Assembly: GCF_002115785.1 (NCBI RefSeq)
Contig: NZ_JFJY01000008.1
Span: forward strand, 124,001-188,000
Length of the DNA: 64,000 nucleotides
Direction: 5' to 3'
From: Thalassospira sp. MCCC 1A03138
GTDB taxonomy: Bacteria > Pseudomonadota > Alphaproteobacteria > Rhodospirillales > Thalassospiraceae
Shown: piece by piece, positions 25,075-52,591 of the stretch
Layout: every line of letters begins with the position of its first letter
Position numbering within the stretch: position 1 is the first letter of the stretch
Made by a program: the position numbers and the translations under genes
Notes under the pieces: model-generated
The model's input: only the letters and a program-made list of their open reading frames with translations
What the model was told of the DNA's origin: nothing
Databases searched by the model: none

Positions 25075-26355
25075 ATGGTTGAAATCATCTATGGGACCGA
25101 CGGCGCAGATGTGCTTGTCGGAACGGAACAGGACGATCATATTTTTGGGCGCGCGGGCAGTGATTATATCCGCGGGCTTGGCGGCAATGACCGCTTCTAT
25201 GAGATCGGACTGGGGAACGATACACTTGATGGCGGTGCCGATCATGATCATTTCCACGCAGGTATCGGTGACGACACGCTGCTTGGCGGTGCCGGCAATG
25301 ACAAACTTGATGGCGGCCCGGGAGCCGATATCATCGATGGTGGTCCCGGCCGCGATGAAATTCAATTTTCCTATTCAAATGACTCGGCCAGGGAAGGTGT
25401 CATCGTCAATCTTGTCACCGGCATCGGTGTGGGCGGCGATGCGGATGGCGACCGCTATAGCAATATCGAGGACATCCGAAGCACCAGATATGACGACGTC
25501 CTAATCGGCAATGAAAAGGACAACACCTTTTTTCAGACCTACAACCGATATGGCGATGGCGATATCATGCGCGGAGGTGATGGCGATGATAAATTCCATG
25601 CTGCCGCCGACTCTTCTTTTTCCGATGATCAGAACAACTATTTCATCGGTGGCGAAGGCAGCGACACCATCAGCTATATTGCCGGTTGGGGCAATGATGC
25701 GCCTTATGGGGAATATGGCCCGCAGCCGGTGATCAACCTGGAAACCGGTTCAGGGCGCACCGGCGACCATTTCGTCAGTATCGAAAATGTAGATGGCAGC
25801 AATCAGGGCGATCTGATCATCGGTGACGACAATGATAACCGTCTGATCGGCAACAAGGGAACTGACACCATCTATGGCGGCGATGGTGACGATATTCTGG
25901 AAGGTGAAGAACTATACGGCGAAGCAGGGAACGACACACTTACCGGCGATGGATATAACGTCTCGCTCTATGGGGGTGATGGCCATGACACGCTTGATGC
26001 CGGCCCCAAAGCCCTTGAAGCCTTTTCCGACAACATCCTTTCGGGCGGCGGCGGTAATGACTGGCTTCAGGGAAATATCGGCGATGATACCTTTATCTTT
26101 GACGCCGAGGCCTCCAGCCGTGATCGTGTGGTTGATTTCGAAACCGGTGACGGTGGCGATACCCTGCTCCTCACCGCTGATCTTCAGGCCAGATCGGGCA
26201 TTACCGATTTTGACAGCCTGCTGGATCACACCACCGAAACCGATGGTGGTGATCTTTACATCGATTTCAGCAACGGCGATCCATGGACCTTTGGCGTGAT
26301 CGTCGAAGACATCACCGAGGATGACCTGACACCTGATAATGTCGAGTTTGGCTAA
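25075..26355 (+). CDS. RTX (haemolysin-type calcium-binding repeat) protein
   Basis: A 426-residue acidic protein made almost wholly of glycine/aspartate nonapeptide repeats (GGXGNDXLX type): DGADVLVGTEQDD near the start, GGAGNDKLDGGPGADIIDGG, DNRLIGNKGTDTIYGGDGDD, and SGGGGNDWLQGNIGDDTF near 325. These form calcium-binding beta rolls. There is no N-terminal signal, and the C-terminal segment (DRVVDFETGDGGDTLLL) fits type I secretion. No separate enzymatic domain and no T1SS genes are nearby, so it may be a structural or adhesive exoprotein exported by a system elsewhere. Confidence 0.88.
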   Translation: MVEIIYGTDGADVLVGTEQDDHIFGRAGSDYIRGLGGNDRFYEIGLGNDTLDGGADHDHFHAGIGDDTLLGGAGNDKLDGGPGADIIDGGPGRDEIQFSYSNDSAREGVIVNLVTGIGVGGDADGDRYSNIEDIRSTRYDDVLIGNEKDNTFFQTYNRYGDGDIMRGGDGDDKFHAAADSSFSDDQNNYFIGGEGSDTISYIAGWGNDAPYGEYGPQPVINLETGSGRTGDHFVSIENVDGSNQGDLIIGDDNDNRLIGNKGTDTIYGGDGDDILEGEELYGEAGNDTLTGDGYNVSLYGGDGHDTLDAGPKALEAFSDNILSGGGGNDWLQGNIGDDTFIFDAEASSRDRVVDFETGDGGDTLLLTADLQARSGITDFDSLLDHTTETDGGDLYIDFSNGDPWTFGVIVEDITEDDLTPDNVEFG

Positions 26356-40889: not shown

Positions 40890-41690
40890 TTAAGCCTCCT
40901 GCCCGGTATTCGCGTTCGCAGCCGCATTCGGCCGCGCCGGGTAATCAAGGAATTCATCGGCCAGAAGCGATTGCGTCGTGGCGTGGGTCGGATTGGCGAA
41001 AATCGCGTCAACCTTGCCTTCCTCGACAATCACGCCGCCATCCATGACCGCCACCCGGTCACAAAGCTGTTTGACCACGGCCATTTCATGGGTGATCACC
41101 ACCATGGTCAGGCCAAGGCGTTTGTTGATGTCACGCAGCAGGCTGAGAATCTGGCGGGTGGTTTCCGGATCAAGGGCGGATGTGACCTCGTCACACAGGA
41201 CGACCTTGGGATTGCTTGAAAGCGCACGCGCAATGCCAACGCGCTGTTTCTGACCACCGGAAAGTTCGGCGGGATAACGGTCGCGCTTGTCTTCAAGACC
41301 GACCAGCGGCAGCAACGGATCAACCGCCGCGGCAATTTCCGCCTTGCTGGCGCCGGCAAGCTCAAGCGGCAGGGCGATATTGTCGTAAACCGTGCGCGAT
41401 GACAGCAGATTGAAATGCTGGAACACCATGCCAAGCTGACGGCGAAACAGCGGCAGATCGCGTTTTACCAGTTGCGTGACATCGGTGCCATCAACGATGA
41501 CACTGCCCGCTGTCGGGACTTCAAGCAGATTGATGCAGCGAATAAGCGTGGATTTCCCCGCACCGGACCGACCGATCACCCCCACGATTTCACCGGCCGC
41601 GATGTCAAGATCGATGCCGTGAAGCGCTTTATGCGCCGGGCTTCCGCGCCGTGCGGGGTAGGTCTTCTGGACGTTCGAGAGCCTGATCAT
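40890..41690 (-). CDS. metN: Methionine ABC transporter ATPase lacking the NIL domain
   Basis: A 266-residue ATPase. Walker [13 protein letters not shown]-loop FQHFNLLS, signature [12 protein letters not shown] and Walker [15 protein letters not shown] are intact. Usual MetN is about 340 residues with a C-terminal ACT-like NIL domain that binds methionine and inhibits transport; here the protein stops soon after the ATPase fold ([11 protein letters not shown]). Control may rest on the riboswitch instead. ATG 41690 is preferred to TTG 41699. Its start overlaps the stop of a 21-codon upstream ORF. Confidence 0.93.
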
Positions 41691-41752
41691 GGATCCCAAC
41701 CTTTTCCGAACATAAAAAAACCGCCGCGGCTATTCCCGAGGCGGTCGTACAT
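41687..41752 (-). CDS. Possible 21-codon upstream ORF overlapping metN start
   Basis: ATG 41752 opens a 21-codon frame ([20 protein letters not shown], then Pro) whose TGA shares bases with the metN ATG (ATGA). It spans the leader terminator, including Phe-Phe codons in the T-run. The nearest Shine-Dalgarno-like GAGAGGG is 15 nt upstream, which is too far unless folding shortens it. It could be chance. Confidence 0.25.
41714..41745 (-). terminator. Intrinsic terminator in the metNIQ leader
   Basis: A stem of 9 of 10 pairs (41745-41736 with 41729-41720, loop GAATAG) followed by seven T lies between the SAM-II aptamer and metN. It suggests premature termination control. Confidence 0.75.
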
Positions 41753-42001: not shown

Positions 42002-42847
42002 ATGGCCTATGCCGACAGGATCAGCGACCTTGCCCGAACACTGGCGCAATACCCGACCAGTGTGACCATCACCGGCAGCAAGATCGACATTCGCACCGCC
42101 AAGCAGCTTGAAAGCCTGAATGCGCAGATCAGCAACGATCAGAACCTTGCGCGTGATGGCGATGCCCTGATCGCAGCGGCCAGCGGCAAGGATGCCAAGG
42201 CATTGTCGCAACGCATTGCCGACGCCGCCCCGCAGGTCGGCAATCTTCTCGCGGCATTTGGCGCGCAGGATACCGAGCGGCTCAAGACGCTGAGCATCAT
42301 GAGCAAACAGAAATTCGATGCGAGTGCCGCCAGCCGCCTTCAGGCCGAGAAACGCTTTGCCGATGAGGTTGCGAAACTGATGGCACAGGAAGCACAGGCG
42401 GTTGCGGCCCTGCCGACATCGCCCTGTGGCCCGAAACCGCAACCCACACCAACGCCGACACCATCGCCCGGCCCCAGCACCAGCCCATCACCGGTGCCGT
42501 CGCTTGATGATGTGATCGCGTCGCTGCCCGGTTATCTGCAGATCACCATCCCCGATGCGGTTAGCGGATATGACGCCGACAGCCTGGCGGTCGCGAGCAA
42601 GGCCGCAGGAGATGCCGCGATCAGGCTTGGCGTCAAAACGCCGGACGGGATTACCGATTACGCCACCGTGCAATTCACGGGAGGCCCGGATGTCACCAGT
42701 CAACCGTGGGCAAGTGCGATCCTGAAGGATACCGGACTTGGCACCATTGATGACCGGATTGCCATTCTGAACAACGCGCTTCAGGCGCGGCTTCTGATTG
42801 CCGATGCGATGAATGACAGCCCATCACCCGCCCCTACCAGCCGCTGA
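42002..42847 (+). CDS. Unknown protein, first gene of the PAD operon
   Basis: A 281-residue protein without recognised family, signal peptide or membrane segment. Residues 1-138 are mostly helical and Ala/Lys/Asp-rich (AKQLESLNAQISNDQNLARD). A Pro/Thr/Ser linker spans about 140-166 (PTPTPTPSPGPSTSPSP) after a single Cys. Residues about 167-280 form a second domain (LDDVIASLPGYLQITIPD, VQFTGGPDVTSQPWASAI). The PAD gene starts 7 nt after its stop, so the two are co-transcribed. Two-domain architecture suggests an adaptor or substrate, but this is speculation. Confidence 0.6.
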   Translation: MAYADRISDLARTLAQYPTSVTITGSKIDIRTAKQLESLNAQISNDQNLARDGDALIAAASGKDAKALSQRIADAAPQVGNLLAAFGAQDTERLKTLSIMSKQKFDASAASRLQAEKRFADEVAKLMAQEAQAVAALPTSPCGPKPQPTPTPTPSPGPSTSPSPVPSLDDVIASLPGYLQITIPDAVSGYDADSLAVASKAAGDAAIRLGVKTPDGITDYATVQFTGGPDVTSQPWASAILKDTGLGTIDDRIAILNNALQARLLIADAMNDSPSPAPTSR

Positions 42848-42854
42848 GGACGTC

Positions 42855-45158
42855 ATGGCAAATTATACCGTCCAGTTCACCGCCCCTGCCGGAGTTTACC
42901 CGTTCAATACAGTGCACGTTTCGCTGACCTGCGATGCCCATCCGCAGCAGACACAGGATTTGGTTCTGATACCCAATGTCGCGGTTTCCCATGTCTTTGA
43001 TATTGCGAGTGGCACTTGGCGGCTAAAGATCAGCGGAGCCGGGTTCGTCCCAGTGGATCAACAGAACATTGTTGTGAATGGCGATGCCACCAATGCCAAG
43101 AATCTCGATGTTATCTGGTATACGCTTCACACCGACCGCAATCGCGACGGCAATCTGGATGATGCCGGTCTTCTTAATCAGGTCACCCCACCTGCCATCA
43201 CATATGGCGTGGCAGGCGTCGGCGCAATCATTCCGGTCAACTGTAATCGTGACGGTAACAATACCGCAGTCGGCTATGCCGATAATCAGGACCAGCGGGT
43301 AAACGGGAACAACGATCTTCTCACCGGTACCTCCCGTCTTGAAATCAGGCGAAATGCACTTGGCCCGAATGTCGGAGCACCGGCCGTTCCGGGCAGTTGG
43401 AACTTGCAGCTAAGCGTTATCGGAACCCTTGGCGAAAACCCGGCCCGGCAACATTTGCGGATATTCGACGGTATTCTGAATAACAGCACCGAAATCATCG
43501 GCCCTGAAACGACCGACATTACACCGATCACGACTGTCACTGTCGGTGCGACCAAACTCTTTGCACTTGAAGCTGTCCGGTTTGCAGGCAACGGATTTAC
43601 TTCTGGTCAGATTCGCATTGCCATGCATGTGATCCAGGAAGAAGTCACGGGTGTTGGCAATCCGACCTATCTGTATGCTGACCGGGTTGTCGTCGCACGC
43701 TGGCTCGGCAATCACCATTTGCAAACAGTTGCCTGCATGTATGTCGCCAACGCAAACAATGCACAGTTTCGCATTGAACTTGGCGCTGAAGCCGGTGCAG
43801 ACAATCCGGTTATCCCGGTTACGGTTGGGGCTCCCACCGCAGCAACCCGAACAGGTGTTCCCTATCTGAACGGCAATGTATGGGCAAACTATCTCGGGGT
43901 CACCGTTGCCGCCGGGGATGACCGCTGGATGCGCGATACTATTGTATCGGGTAACTGTTCATGGCCCGGCAACGGCACAGGTGTTGAAAACAAGGATGTT
44001 TTCATGAAGGCACACCGCTGGCGGCCCCTGCAAAACTGGGTTTATGAGACATTGCTAAGCGCAAATGTTGGCATTTCATATCCGGCCGCAGGAAGCGCAG
44101 ATGCTATCACTTCGGCTAATTCCGGGGGAAATATTGCCGTGACCCCACCCGTTCAGAAAACGGCGAATGGCATAGTCACATCGTATCGATACGGTCGGAT
44201 TTATTATGGCCATAACCGGTATCACAGGGTCGATGCCAGTAGCCGCGACTTTATGGCCGCCCAGAACATGCAAACACCGATCATTCTTGACACGGATTGG
44301 CTGCTGGTTGGTCATGTCGATGAAATGATGACCTTTGTGCCGGATAATAATCCGGCCAATGCCTTCAAAAAGTGGAAGCTTCTGGTGGCGAGCCCGGCGG
44401 AGGCATATCGCCTTATGACAGCCGCCCAGGCTGCACATGGCGCAGCAAATGTGCTCAATCGTGCGGCGTGGGACCCTGTCAACAATCGCTTTAATTATGC
44501 AAGCCAGCAAATCAACGGGACCAATGTTGGCGCAACCATCAACGCCTTTCTTGGCAACGGCCAGGCCCCCTTAACCAATCCGCGAGATCACAGCAATTAC
44601 ACATACAGGCAACTACGCAACTGGAATATCGGTGGCGTTGAAACAATCATCACCAGGAATGTTGCCGTCCTGAAAAATGCATTTGATCTGGCTGATACCG
44701 ATATCATCAAGGTTCCGGTCATCTTCTTCCCGGAAGGCTTTAACCCCGGTAACTTCACCTTTGCAGACAAGGTTTCTGGTTGGACAATCGGGCGTGACAA
44801 CGGCTTTAACGTCTATCCGGGCAAACAGGGCGGTTTTCAGTGCGGTGCCTTGACCGGTGACATGCCCAATATGTTTGTTGGTAATCACCGCCTGATGATC
44901 CCCAAGCCTTTCGGCCCGTGGATCGAGGACAATACAAACCCCCATCACGGATATGATCTTTTTGAACGTGATTTGACCCAGAAAATCGCTGCCATCGTCA
45001 ATGGTCCCACCTGCCAATTCATTGATGACTGGAATGACTATCACGTTGAACTTGGTGAAATTCACTGCGGCACGAACGAATTGCGCACGCCTTATAACGG
45101 TCAGGCGGCGTTTGGCAATGCGCGCTATGCCAACTGGTGGACAGCGGTTGATGCGTGA
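42855..45158 (+). CDS. Protein-arginine deiminase (vertebrate-type PAD family)
   Basis: A 767-residue relative of eukaryotic PADs, which convert protein arginine to citrulline in a calcium-dependent reaction. Matching blocks in PAD order: DDRWMRD (355-361; Asp361 = PAD4 Asp350), NIAVTPPV, DTDWLLVGHVDEMMTFVP (His487, Asp489 = His471, Asp473), WKLLVASPAEAYRL, DTDIIKVPVIF, MPNMFVGNHRLMIPKPFGP, and YHVELGEIHCGTNELRTP (Cys738 = Cys645). Residues 1-340 are beta-rich, with a calcium-loop-like DRNRDGNLDD near 95. The PAD4 GPDFGYVTR segment is missing. ATG 42855 follows TGAGGA. No signal peptide. Not the Porphyromonas-type enzyme. Confidence 0.88.
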   Translation: MANYTVQFTAPAGVYPFNTVHVSLTCDAHPQQTQDLVLIPNVAVSHVFDIASGTWRLKISGAGFVPVDQQNIVVNGDATNAKNLDVIWYTLHTDRNRDGNLDDAGLLNQVTPPAITYGVAGVGAIIPVNCNRDGNNTAVGYADNQDQRVNGNNDLLTGTSRLEIRRNALGPNVGAPAVPGSWNLQLSVIGTLGENPARQHLRIFDGILNNSTEIIGPETTDITPITTVTVGATKLFALEAVRFAGNGFTSGQIRIAMHVIQEEVTGVGNPTYLYADRVVVARWLGNHHLQTVACMYVANANNAQFRIELGAEAGADNPVIPVTVGAPTAATRTGVPYLNGNVWANYLGVTVAAGDDRWMRDTIVSGNCSWPGNGTGVENKDVFMKAHRWRPLQNWVYETLLSANVGISYPAAGSADAITSANSGGNIAVTPPVQKTANGIVTSYRYGRIYYGHNRYHRVDASSRDFMAAQNMQTPIILDTDWLLVGHVDEMMTFVPDNNPANAFKKWKLLVASPAEAYRLMTAAQAAHGAANVLNRAAWDPVNNRFNYASQQINGTNVGATINAFLGNGQAPLTNPRDHSNYTYRQLRNWNIGGVETIITRNVAVLKNAFDLADTDIIKVPVIFFPEGFNPGNFTFADKVSGWTIGRDNGFNVYPGKQGGFQCGALTGDMPNMFVGNHRLMIPKPFGPWIEDNTNPHHGYDLFERDLTQKIAAIVNGPTCQFIDDWNDYHVELGEIHCGTNELRTPYNGQAAFGNARYANWWTAVDA

Positions 45159-45188: not shown

Positions 45189-45806
45189 ATGACTGCACAA
45201 AGCGACTATCAACAGGCCCTGAAAGATATCGCGAACCTTGCAACACAGGAAGCAAAGCGCGTGACCGGCCGCCCGGCCCCACAGGCGATTGACCAGATTT
45301 TCCGGCAATATGGCGGCACCATCGCCGCCCCGATGATCGATGATCTTAAAGCAAGTTCGTGGAAAAAGTGGGAAAGCTGGCAGTTGGGCGGGGCGATTGC
45401 CTATCTGTCGAGTTACGGCACATCGGCCGCGGTTACGCCATTGCGCGATATCGAGCAGAACTATCCGGTGACCGATATTCAGATTCAGGCAAAGGCACTG
45501 GCCGACCTTTTGGCAACACTTGACGTTGCCGCGTCCGAGGCCAAGCAAATCCCGCAGGTGCAGGACGCAATCAAAAGCGGTGATGCCGATCAGATGGCGC
45601 GTGCAATGTTGTTGGGGCTGGCGCAAATCGATCCGGACTGGCCGGTGCGGGCATCTGAAATCCAGACAAAGCTGTTTGCCCTGTCGGCGGACAGTTTCCC
45701 GGCAATCAATGAAATGGCGGACGGTAGACTAAGCCAGAATGACGTCACCAAGGCGCTGGTGGAAATCCTGTTTGAGAATGTGACATCGGGGACGGGCACG
45801 CCGTAA
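45189..45806 (+). CDS. Unknown helical protein, third gene of the PAD operon
   Basis: A 205-residue, largely helical and soluble protein with no recognised family. It has repeated Ala/Asp/Gln-rich helices (SDYQQALKDIANLATQEAK, IQAKALADLLATLDVAASEA, DAIKSGDADQMARAMLLGLA) and no Cys. It starts 30 nt after the PAD stop with a GGGAG ribosome site. Regular helical pairs might indicate an alpha-solenoid or immunity-type fold; this is only a guess. Confidence 0.6.
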   Translation: MTAQSDYQQALKDIANLATQEAKRVTGRPAPQAIDQIFRQYGGTIAAPMIDDLKASSWKKWESWQLGGAIAYLSSYGTSAAVTPLRDIEQNYPVTDIQIQAKALADLLATLDVAASEAKQIPQVQDAIKSGDADQMARAMLLGLAQIDPDWPVRASEIQTKLFALSADSFPAINEMADGRLSQNDVTKALVEILFENVTSGTGTP

Positions 45807-45815
45807 GCATAGTAA

Positions 45816-45842
45816 AAGCCGATCAGCTTTCGGCCTTTTTTT
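45816..45842 (+). terminator. Probable terminator of the PAD operon
   Basis: An imperfect stem (about 8 pairs, one mismatch, 45816-45823 with 45830-45838) followed by a T-run lies after the third gene, overlapping the end of the convergent holC. Confidence 0.55.
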
Positions 45843-46278
45843 CCCATGCCCCTTGGGGGGTCTGCTGCCAGTAAGACAGCTTGTGCCCGGCGTCTTTCCA
45901 GTCTTTCCAACGCGTGCGCGCCTCGGCCACCGCATCATGATCGCGGTCATCAAACAGCATGATGACGCGTTCATAATCTGCGATCTTTTCGCTAATCGCG
46001 CGGTCGGTCAGAAACAGAAACTGCGCCCCGTTGGGATTTTCATCATCGGATGTCAGCCATACCGGCTGCATTTCCGGATCACCATCGGATTTCGATCCAT
46101 GGGGCATCCAGCTTGCGGCGTCATAGGTCCAAAGCAGGGTGTTGAGCGCCTCGATCCTTTCCTCGGTTCCGGTCATGACGACAGCACGTTTTTCCCGCTC
46201 CAATGTCTTGGACAGCAGGGTCGGCAATGCACGTTCCAGCGGGGACGCGGTCAGATGATAGAACCAGATGTCAGCCAT
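45823..46278 (-). CDS. holC: DNA polymerase III chi subunit
   Basis: A 151-residue clamp-loader accessory protein linking polymerase III to SSB. It begins MADIWFYHLTASPLERALP and shows LLWTYDAASWMPHG and the Asp-rich IMLFDDRDHDAVAEARTRWK, all typical of HolC. It lies downstream of pepA, a common pairing in Proteobacteria, although a terminator separates them here. No strong ribosome site. Confidence 0.92.
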   Translation of the reverse strand: MADIWFYHLTASPLERALPTLLSKTLEREKRAVVMTGTEERIEALNTLLWTYDAASWMPHGSKSDGDPEMQPVWLTSDDENPNGAQFLFLTDRAISEKIADYERVIMLFDDRDHDAVAEARTRWKDWKDAGHKLSYWQQTPQGAWEKKAES

Positions 46279-49890: not shown

Positions 49891-51009
49891 TCAGGATGGT
49901 GGTGCCGAACCCGCAGTTGGCGCGGCCAGACGCACCGGCTGGCGCTTTGGCCCCCAAGTGCCGGGGCATGGTTGGAACACACCTGCGCAATGGGTGCCGC
50001 AATGAGTGCAGGCCCCATGCGCATCAAGGTTCCAGTCCGATAACTGATACCAGTCACGCCCGATCAGGATGTGACCGCAGTTATGACAAAAGGTGCTTGA
50101 TCCGGCCTTGTCATGGACATTGCCGACATAAGCATACCGAATGCCGTTTTTCATCGCGATCTCGCGCGCCCGGATCAGGGTCGCGGGCGGGGTGCGCGGA
50201 TGATCCATCATTTTCCAGTCGGGATGAAAGGCGGTGAAATGCATCGGCACATCGGGGCCAAGATCACCCGCCACCCATGACGTCATTTCATCGAATTCCG
50301 CGTCGCTGTCATTCTCGCCCGGAATCACCAGACTGGTCAGCTCGAACCACACCCCGGTTTCATGTTTAAGGTATTTCAGGGTTTCCAGAACATCGGCCAG
50401 ATGGGCGGAGCAAAGCTTGTGATAGAAATCCTCGGTAAAGCCCTTGAGGTCGACATTGGCCGCATCCATGTGGCGGAAAAATTCCTCGCGGGCTTTATCG
50501 CCAATATAACCCGCCGTGACGGCAACGGTGCGAATGCCCGCCTCCCGGCAGGCCTGCGCCACATCCACCGCATATTCCAGAAAAATCACCGGATCGTTAT
50601 ATGTAAAGGCGACTGCCGAACAGCCATATTCCTTGGCGGTTCTGGCGATCATTTCAGGCGTCGCAAGCGATCCCAGCCTGTCCATTTCACGCGCCTTGGA
50701 AATCTCGTAATTCTGACAGAACTTGCAGGTCAGATTGCAGCCCGCCGTACCAAAGGACAGGATCGGGGTGCCGGGCAGGAAATGGTTAAGCGGCTTTTTT
50801 TCGATCGGATCGATGCAAAAGCCCGATGACCGCCCCCATGTGGTCAAAACCACCTGATCGCCCTCGCGCGCCCGGACAAAGCACAGGCCCCGCTGCCCGT
50901 CCTTCAGCTTGCAAAAGCGCGGGCAGACATCACACTGGATACGACCATCCTCAAGATGATGCCAGTATCGGCCGAGAACACTATCGATTTGCGGGGTCGT
51001 GACATTCAT
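49891..51009 (-). CDS. amrS: AmmeMemoRadiSam system radical SAM enzyme
   Basis: A 372-residue radical SAM protein related to pyruvate-formate-lyase activases. The cluster motif CNLTCKFCQNYE is at about 95, preceded by DVCPRFCKLKDGQRGLCFVR (extra Cys). The C-terminus has another Cys set (HNCGHILIGR, HGACTHCGTHCAGVF) likely binding zinc or a second cluster. It is divergent from the fused amrB-amrA gene, the three making the AmmeMemoRadiSam set, whose reaction is not known. Confidence 0.93.
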   Translation of the reverse strand: MNVTTPQIDSVLGRYWHHLEDGRIQCDVCPRFCKLKDGQRGLCFVRAREGDQVVLTTWGRSSGFCIDPIEKKPLNHFLPGTPILSFGTAGCNLTCKFCQNYEISKAREMDRLGSLATPEMIARTAKEYGCSAVAFTYNDPVIFLEYAVDVAQACREAGIRTVAVTAGYIGDKAREEFFRHMDAANVDLKGFTEDFYHKLCSAHLADVLETLKYLKHETGVWFELTSLVIPGENDSDAEFDEMTSWVAGDLGPDVPMHFTAFHPDWKMMDHPRTPPATLIRAREIAMKNGIRYAYVGNVHDKAGSSTFCHNCGHILIGRDWYQLSDWNLDAHGACTHCGTHCAGVFQPCPGTWGPKRQPVRLAAPTAGSAPPS

Positions 51010-51112
51010 GGCGTTTTGGACCCTGACGGGACTTCACGATTGTTAGCTTGTCCTTTTAATATGTAGTCCTGATCGCTATCTTTTTCAAAGGAAGCCCATC
51101 ATTGGAAGCGTC

Positions 51113-52591
51113 ATGACGATTATCCGTCCTCCTGCCATTGCCGGAACGTTTTATCCCGCCGCACCCGATATGTTGCGCAGCGAGATTGACGGGTTGATCC
51201 ATGCGGCGGTCGAGAGCCAGACGGAGAATGATACGCCAATCCCCAAGGCGATTATTGTGCCCCATGCCGGGCTGATGTTTTCGGGCGCGATTGCCGGTTT
51301 GGGTTTTGCCACGATTCGGGCGTTAAAGGGCACGGTCAAACGGATCGTGATCATTGGTCCGGCGCATCGCATGGCATTTCAGGGGATTGCGATTGCCAAG
51401 GCGGACGGGTTTGCGACACCGCTTGGCGATGTGAGGTGCGATCTGGCCGGGTTGCAGGCCGCCCTTGCATGGCCGCAGGTACAGGTTCTGGACGAGGCGC
51501 ACCGGCTGGAACACGGGCTTGAGATCGAATTGCCGTTTATCCAGCGATTGTTTGGAGAAGATGCCGATATCGGGATTGTGCCCCTGCTGGTCAGCCGGTG
51601 TGCTGCACGGCAGGTGCATGAGGTGATCGAGGCCCTGTGGGGCGGGCCGGAAACCCTGATCGTGATTTCATCGGACCTATCGCATTTTCATGATTACGAT
51701 ACCGCCAAACGCATCGACGACAATACGCGCGCAATGATCGAACGGTTTGACGCCGAAAGCATCACAAGCGGCGATGCGTGCGGCGCGTTGCCAGTTGCGG
51801 GCATGTTGATGTCGGCCCGCAAGCGCAGCATGCGGATCAGGACACTTGGCATGTGTAATTCCGGCGATATCACGGGTGATAAATCGCGCGTGGTCGGCTA
51901 TGGCGCGTGGGCGGTTTATGCGGGAACGGAAAAGATGCGCAGTTCTGACAATGAGAACGGGTCTTTCGTCGGCGCGACCGATAGGCTTCTGGCCGATCAT
52001 GGGGCGACGATGATCGACCTTGCACGGCAATCGATCTGGCACGGGATCACGCATGGCGGGCCGCTTCGCATTGATCCGGCATCGATTTCGCCCGAACTTC
52101 TGCAACCGGGTGCGTGCTTTGTGACATTAAAGAAATCCGGCCAGCTTCGCGGCTGTATCGGATCGGTGATGGCGCATCGCGATCTTGCGACGGATCTGTG
52201 CGAAAATGCCTTCAAGGCCGGGTTTGGCGACCCGCGTTTTCCGGCCCTTCGCCAAGATGAATTGAATGACGATCTGGAATTATCGATTTCGGTCCTCTCC
52301 CCGCCGCGTGATTTTCCATTTGAAAACGAGGCCGATCTGATCGCCAAACTGACACCCCATGAGGATGGCATCATCCTGTCGGATGGCAATCATCGTGGCT
52401 TGTTCCTGCCACAGGTCTGGGAACAGTTGCCCGATCCGGCGGATTTCGTGGCGCAGTTGAAACGCAAGGCCGGGCTTTCGACGGATCACTGGTCGGATCG
52501 CATGCGCGCCCAACGGTTTGTCACGCGCGGCATATCGGGCAAGGACATCGCGCCCAGGGATTTCTGGCAGCAATCGCCCCCGATGCCATGA
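51113..52591 (+). CDS. Fused AmmeMemoRadiSam proteins B (Memo) and A (AMMECR1)
   Basis: A 492-residue fusion. Residues 1-265 match the Memo family, related to extradiol dioxygenases (PPAIAGTFYPA, IIVPHAGLMFSG, ELPFIQRLF, VISSDLSHFHDYD). Residues about 285-490 match AMMECR1 (GACFVTLKKSGQLRGCIGS, FGDPRFPALRQDEL, GIILSDGNHRGLFLPQVWEQ). The two are usually separate genes, though fusions occur. It overlaps the next gene by ATGA. AmrS is divergent. Confidence 0.93.
   Translation: MTIIRPPAIAGTFYPAAPDMLRSEIDGLIHAAVESQTENDTPIPKAIIVPHAGLMFSGAIAGLGFATIRALKGTVKRIVIIGPAHRMAFQGIAIAKADGFATPLGDVRCDLAGLQAALAWPQVQVLDEAHRLEHGLEIELPFIQRLFGEDADIGIVPLLVSRCAARQVHEVIEALWGGPETLIVISSDLSHFHDYDTAKRIDDNTRAMIERFDAESITSGDACGALPVAGMLMSARKRSMRIRTLGMCNSGDITGDKSRVVGYGAWAVYAGTEKMRSSDNENGSFVGATDRLLADHGATMIDLARQSIWHGITHGGPLRIDPASISPELLQPGACFVTLKKSGQLRGCIGSVMAHRDLATDLCENAFKAGFGDPRFPALRQDELNDDLELSISVLSPPRDFPFENEADLIAKLTPHEDGIILSDGNHRGLFLPQVWEQLPDPADFVAQLKRKAGLSTDHWSDRMRAQRFVTRGISGKDIAPRDFWQQSPPMP

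Follow-up and report, generated by a model that had tools for sequence, protein, structure and literature searches.

The DNA examined here is a stretch of 64,000 nucleotides, hereafter called the window, from Thalassospira sp. MCCC 1A03138 (contig NZ_JFJY01000008.1, positions 124,001 to 188,000). It carries on its forward strand a gene for a protein-arginine deiminase (PAD) of 767 aa at window positions 42855–45158. The PAD gene is preceded by gene A (42002–42847, +), which encodes an adaptor-like protein of 281 aa and stops 7 nt upstream of PAD, and is followed after 30 nt by gene C (45189–45806, +), which encodes an immunity-like, HEAT-repeat-like protein of 205 aa. On its own, the PAD gene is an already known kind of gene, because it has clear Pfam and PDB matches and because Thalassospira proteins have already been named accordingly. 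New is its setting: it lies between an adaptor-like and an immunity-like partner in an A-PAD-C operon that is swapped among strains.

The PAD protein matched the Pfam family PF03068 with an E-value of 3.4e-63 (214 bits against a cut-off of 25; catalytic domain at approximately 43692–45098, +) and PAD_M (PF08527) with 28.1 bits against a cut-off of 24.8 (approximately 43122–43622, +). In a phmmer search against PDB sequences, every one of the 27 distinct matches with E <= 0.01 was PADI1, 2, 3, 4 or 6, and PADI2 was the best (2.1e-30). NCBIfam, PADLOC and PHROGs yielded no family match for the protein. Its closest named relatives are Thalassospira proteins, several of which are annotated as 'protein-arginine deiminase family protein'. 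The length of 767 aa is counted from the start chosen in the initial annotation, which is preceded by a GAGGA-like ribosome site (by eye); the mechanically called open reading frame begins 42 nt further upstream, inside gene A. The five sequence blocks that the initial annotation had likened to human PAD4 were all found in the translation, and the catalytic residues it had named are in sequence register with those of PADI4: Asp361 with Asp350, His487 with His471 and Asp489 with Asp473 (both within the H-V-D motif at 44313–44321, +), and Cys738 within GEIHCGTN (codon at 45066–45068, +) with Cys645. In the alignment underlying the tree described below, all four residues were kept in the 14 rows of the Thalassospira group, while the remaining 75 rows retained Asp/His/Asp in every case and the catalytic Cys in 74, one row being gapped at this position. 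Judged by the family matches and this register, the open reading frame is a true PAD-family member with its catalytic set in place, and its product would be expected to deiminate protein arginine. Inspection by eye revealed no signal sequence in any of the three proteins, so the description of a PAD enzyme in a proteobacterium without N-terminal signal sequence is borne out.

A scan of genome contigs confirmed at least 532 relatives, of which the best 80 places, corresponding to 79 loci, went into an IQ-TREE phylogeny of 89 rows (377 columns, LG+F+R5, 1000 ultrafast bootstraps (UFBoot), displayed midpoint-rooted). The remaining rows were the window protein, PADI4 of hippopotamus and of pygmy sperm whale, and seven further proteins. 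The window protein and loci L042–L054, of which L050 is labelled as a metagenome-assembled genome (MAG) of Rhodospirillales, formed one branch (UFBoot 100). It is adjoined by two other Rhodospirillales-type MAGs (L055 and L056; 100) and, further out, by P0024, L087, L095, L074 and L058 (100). L057, L073, L076, L082–L085, L088 and L094, which come from Acidobacteriota, Myxococcota, Fibrobacterota, Planctomycetota and Gammaproteobacteria, form a second branch (100), and several of these loci are linked to type VI secretion system (T6SS) genes. The node uniting both branches with L061, L092 and P0025 was poorly supported (UFBoot 37), and the non-Thalassospira loci under this node are referred to as the 17 related loci. 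Vertebrate PADI4, together with P0026 and P0040, joined cyanobacterial PADs (95), apart from Thalassospira, in agreement with the placement of proteobacterial PADs outside the animal-cyanobacterial clade by Cummings et al. (PMC8826395). The same authors traced the origin of animal citrullination to bacteria and listed 69 proteobacterial species with PADs in their Table 1 (PMC8826395). In contrast to the initial annotation, which called the enzyme vertebrate-type, a vertebrate-type PADI is ruled out by this position in the tree, by the changed calcium sites described below and by the lack of a Pfam match to the PAD_N domain, of which degenerate forms might escape Pfam. Instead, an NHHLQ motif sits between PAD_M and PAD_C and recalls the triple-His motif of fungal/actinobacterial-type PADs (Cummings et al., PMC8826395). 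By sequence, the Thalassospira PAD is therefore not of vertebrate type but groups with other bacterial PADs. Among the other proteins, P0025 is a 1261-aa polypeptide with OmpA, peptidoglycan-binding, PAD_M and PAD domains. PADs were also found in two Methanophagales archaeon records (L117 and L120), which may be contaminants; an archaeal PAD match was judged to be a misattribution in PMC8826395.

The family profile of gene C matched designed as well as natural repeat proteins of the alphaRep/HEAT type in the PDB with E-values down to 2.7e-15, a natural HEAT protein reaching 7.6e-6. In hhalign, gene C scored 93% (E 4e-7) against the protein 3' of PAD in L055 and L056, compared to 0.2% for a mismatched control. 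Searches with phmmer, starting from single proteins of L055, L056 and L073 and followed by iterated profiles, detected C-like proteins directly downstream of PAD. When the C protein of L055 served as single query, the C of four among the 13 Thalassospira loci was matched at 7e-7 to 3e-5; matches in L056, L058, L074, L087 and L095 were obtained as well. When matches with E < 1e-3 starting between 150 nt before and 400 nt after the PAD end were counted in the 79 loci, a C-like gene lay beside PAD in 13/13 loci of the Thalassospira group, 16/17 related loci and 1/49 of all others; the profiles had been built from members, and the E-values are thus favourable, less so in the single-query search above. 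The sole match among the 49 other loci was L097 (2.4e-4 over 46 residues), and one of these loci, L077, offers less than 300 nt 3' of PAD. By eye, the C-like proteins of L061, L073, L076, L083 and L088 open with a signal-peptide or lipoprotein-like stretch, and those of Thalassospira, L055, L056, L058, L074, L087 and L095 do not, so that the site of action of the PADs may differ between these loci. In Actinoplanes aureus (L058:1462-7665), whose genome is devoid of VipB, a C-like gene follows a single frame of 2067 aa with subtilase, peptidoglycan-binding, amine oxidase, PAD_M and PAD domains, the start of which may be over-extended.

The product of gene A has two domains with a Pro-rich linker between them, A_N (residues 1–135; 42002–42406, +) and the effector-binding-like adaptor domain A_C (residues ~167–281; 42500–42844, +). 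An AlphaFold2 model contained two ordered domains, with pLDDT values below 50 for residues 142–164. No Pfam, PADLOC or PHROG family matched gene A, and the NCBIfam matches were weak, far under the cut-off and best on the Pro-rich stretch. Protein searches returned at least 50 A proteins, with scoring confined to the 8000 best candidates, as well as 28 C proteins. Where the organism was named, it was Thalassospira, Thalassospiraceae or an unplaced Rhodospirillales/Pseudomonadota MAG. A_C is related to proteins in T6SS-linked PAD loci, with an A-like protein in L073, L084, L085 and L094. T6SS adaptor or spike genes were located near PAD in 7 of the 17 related loci, among them L073 (a deltaproteobacterial MAG with VgrG, DUF4123 and a DUF4280 PAAR-like protein), L088 (Lysobacter sp. 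Root690, VgrG directly upstream of PAD) and L084/L085/L094 (Nannocystis). As in Thalassospira, a C-like gene immediately follows a related PAD in these loci. They differ from the Thalassospira module by retaining the calcium-1 acidic ligands and by having DUF4123 or VgrG, neither of which lies near the Thalassospira module, where A_N is found instead. In Thalassospira, A_N is a lineage-specific domain at the place where the relatives have a DUF4123 adaptor.

The three genes are strictly linked. Of 29 Thalassospira genomes, 17 had each of A, PAD and C at one place (some matches in two pieces), and the other 12 lacked all three. In the 16 carrier relatives that were fetched, the order A-PAD-C was always maintained, and there as well as in the window, A and PAD are separate open reading frames. 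Protein identities were compared over the 136 pairs of the 17 carrier genomes, with the mean of five flanking core proteins as core identity and Mantel tests with 4999 permutations. Identity of A_N closely tracked the core (r 0.94). In contrast, A_C, PAD and C were correlated with each other (PAD-C 0.92, C-A_C 0.87 and PAD-A_C 0.78, each p 0.0002), and these correlations persisted as partial correlations given the core (0.91, 0.85 and 0.75, respectively), whereas those with A_N were near zero (PAD-A_N 0.01, C-A_N -0.07). Core identity was at least 95% in 23 pairs, and in 13 of them PAD identity was below 65%; in the pair L013/L018, the core proteins were 99% identical, compared to 88% for A_N, 35% for A_C, 48% for PAD and 51% for C. 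When PAD was divided into three stretches, its first 85 residues varied most (mean identity 49%), and C varies more in its N-terminal half (64%) than in its C-terminal half (73%). Synonymous divergence was high in PAD, for example 2.6 compared to 0.15 for metN between the window and L022, indicating that whole alleles came in by recombination. The ratio of non-synonymous to synonymous divergence (dN/dS) of PAD was 0.08–0.19 in eight of nine hand-chosen pairs, while the ninth was saturated. A_C-PAD-C is therefore exchanged as one block in Thalassospira, and A_N follows the genome. Such allele exchange is not expected of a housekeeping enzyme.

We consider it probable that A-PAD-C constitutes an adaptor, a deiminase effector and an immunity protein for antagonism between bacteria. 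PAD would be a toxic effector that converts protein arginine side chains to citrulline in another cell, and C would be its cognate immunity protein, silencing it by binding. A would serve as adaptor, with the helical A_C holding its own PAD allele and A_N docking on a partner that is inherited with the genome. The ancestral state was probably that of a T6SS cargo effector, and the Thalassospira module has the parts and the evolution of a T6SS effector set. However, the T6SS sheath protein VipB was found in none of the 17 carriers compared to 4 of the 12 non-carriers (an E. coli control was positive), and DUF4123 was likewise absent from the 17 carriers, with the same split between carriers and non-carriers and none in the genome of the window (G000). 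Therefore, the module cannot be classed as a T6SS effector of its host. Several further observations speak against the proposed function. Among the neighbours scanned with Pfam there was no T6SS part, only the A_C domain; genome-wide searches did not extend to VgrG, PAAR and Hcp. VipB was also absent from the genomes of the nearest outside loci, L055 and L056, which are MAGs and perhaps incomplete; a contractile phage-type sheath was present in just one of the 17 carriers; and the tube protein of extracellular contractile injection systems (PF06841) was found in none of the 29 genomes, which carries little weight as no control was positive. PADLOC did not recognize the module. The 17 related loci are defined by a weak join of two well-supported groups, one of them (L092) lacks a C gene, and the match in L061 is weak (independent E-value 1.6e-5). 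A_C, PAD and C still track the core weakly (r 0.33–0.35, Mantel p 0.0002–0.005), and the match to Tap3 (Foldseek E 3) is in the range where helical models may match by chance. Finally, the calcium dependence of the Thalassospira PAD may be altered.

In PADI4, calcium 1 is bound by Q349, E353 and E411 and calcium 2 by E351, D369 and N373, and both ions together order the active site (PMC11402830). In the comparison by Cummings et al. (PMC8826395), which spanned PADs from metazoans, cyanobacteria, actinobacteria and fungi, site 1 was conserved. The window PAD has R, V and A at the calcium-1 positions and T, K and W at the calcium-2 positions; the R-D-T-I-V motif at residues 360–364 (43932–43946, +) places the catalytic Asp361 beside Q349R, E351T and E353V in PADI4 numbering. 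E353 is replaced by V, I or F in all 14 rows of the Thalassospira group (75 other rows: E 67, Q 5, D 1, T 1, K 1) and E411 by A, S or G in 10 of them (others: E 69, D 6), so that both acidic calcium-1 ligands are lost in 10/14 rows compared to 0/75. Q349 is exchanged for R in 14/14 rows, as well as in nine of the 75 others, all from cyanobacteria. All three calcium-2 positions are altered in the 14 rows, D369 invariably to K, although changes at this site are frequent elsewhere too, with D369 retained in only 38 of the 75 other rows. The motifs of calcium sites 3–6 in the PAD_M part look largely retained (by eye). Either calcium 1 has been replaced, for example by Arg360, or the activity has been lost, and the conservation of the catalytic residues leads us to favour the first possibility. 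With the calcium-1 and calcium-2 ligands changed, a calcium-dependent citrulline assay may be misleading. PADs without calcium-1 ligands may offer a direct test of how calcium builds the PAD active site. A bolder and rather doubtful extension would be that citrullination is an interbacterial weapon, with one branch of the PAD family made up of effectors that have HEAT-like immunity proteins, and that the Thalassospira members left the T6SS, dock via A_N on an undescribed delivery machine and work without the active-site calcium needed by active human PADIs, with the Arg beside the catalytic Asp taking the place of calcium 1.

The operon occupies a variable slot between a metN-like ABC ATPase gene (40890–41699, -; Pfam ABC_tran 1.2e-35) and holC (DNA polymerase III chi; 45823–46278, -; Pfam 4.3e-36), the latter being present in 29/29 genomes. 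The order metQIN-slot-holC-pepA was kept in all 28 relatives fetched. In PAD-less genomes, the slot measured about 300 bp in 4/12 cases and contained other genes in 8/12, which by eye are TetR-like, methyltransferase-like plus GNAT-like, or chemotaxis-like. A second cargo of approximately 2.6–2.8 kb (TetR-like, homocysteine methyltransferase-like and GNAT-like, by eye) occurs in the slot, alone or adjoining the PAD operon (L030, L031, L033, L036, L038 and L013, L015, L017, L018, L020, L022, L026). Partial 3' copies of holC flank the slot at L014:4689-4820 and L033:11202-11441 (G006 and G008) and look as if inserts had arrived carrying a piece of holC.

Next to the effector-immunity interpretation, a domesticated intracellular toxin-antitoxin or phage-defence operon derived from a T6SS effector set deserves consideration, although we regard it as unlikely. 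In this case nothing would be exported, and PAD would act on proteins of the cell itself or of a phage, upon loss of C or detection of a phage, the latter perhaps via A_N. The missing sheath and DUF4123 genes, the lack of recognizable signal sequences, the single fixed chromosomal slot in the carriers fetched and an allele exchange as in defence loci would all be compatible with this scenario. However, no PADLOC or PHROG match was obtained, the relatives adjoin VgrG, DUF4123 and a PAAR-like protein, and the signal- or lipoprotein-like N-terminus of C in five related loci fits immunity against an incoming effector. Quite improbable appears a plain intracellular or released citrullinating enzyme with a regulatory or metabolic job, in which A would be a regulator and C a chaperone. 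Intracellular citrullination was the default view of the initial annotation and agrees with the catalytic residues, the apparent lack of a secretion signal and the purifying selection on PAD, but not with the patchy presence in 17/29 genomes, the replacement of alleles between genomes with 95–99% identical flanks and the coupling of this exchange to A_C and C but not to A_N. We prefer an effector-immunity function over this default because of the operon, the immunity-like partner, the allele exchange and the T6SS-linked relatives. Least probable is a pseudoenzyme or structural protein similar to human PADI6, which binds no calcium and is inactive in vitro (PMC11402830): the calcium ligands are changed partly as in PADI6, and N373A abolishes activity of human PADI4 (PMC11402830), but the four catalytic residues are intact throughout the Thalassospira group, whereas the catalytic Cys position is not conserved in human PADI6, and the low dN/dS values argue against a loss of function.

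Elsewhere in the window, positions 25075–26355 (+) encode a likely secreted protein with RTX calcium-binding repeats (PF00353, 6.6e-39), and a radical SAM gene adjoins a fused Memo-AMMECR1 gene at 49891–52591.

In literature listings and a term search of one review, we found no description of PADs as effectors, and the words operon and neighbour were absent from the text of Cummings et al. in a term search (PMC8826395). Should one PAD branch consist of effectors paired with immunity proteins, citrullination would be a further toxin chemistry, and the immunity proteins would be ready-made PAD binders, which is of practical interest since PADs are drug targets. The module also raises the question how a T6SS-type cargo set is kept and exchanged in genomes without a T6SS sheath gene.

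With the vertebrate and cyanobacterial PADI1-4 ('clade Ai' of PMC8826395), the Thalassospira PAD shares PAD_M and PAD_C, the catalytic Asp/His/Asp/Cys and the substrate positions Arg372 and Arg374. It differs from them by the lack of a detected PAD_N, by the changed calcium-1 and calcium-2 ligands, by its place in the tree and by its operon with adaptor-like and immunity-like genes. The exchange pattern, in which A_N stays with the genome and A_C-PAD-C moves as a block, resembles polymorphic toxin systems, with A_N as the putative trafficking part and PAD as the presumed toxin, although in Thalassospira these reside in separate frames instead of one polypeptide. Compared to the auxiliary T6SS clusters of Vibrio cholerae (PMC5361080), the Thalassospira effector is a deiminase, there is no VgrG or DUF4123 beside it and no sheath in the carriers, and orphan immunity copies were not seen. 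The V. cholerae clusters contain exchangeable adaptor-effector-immunity modules in which the 3' part of the adaptor gene belongs with the cargo and is transferred together with the effector and the immunity gene by homologous recombination (PMC5361080). Work on a chimeric Tap-1 adaptor is cited there and in PMC10433429. In Thalassospira, the A_C part of the putative adaptor behaves similarly.
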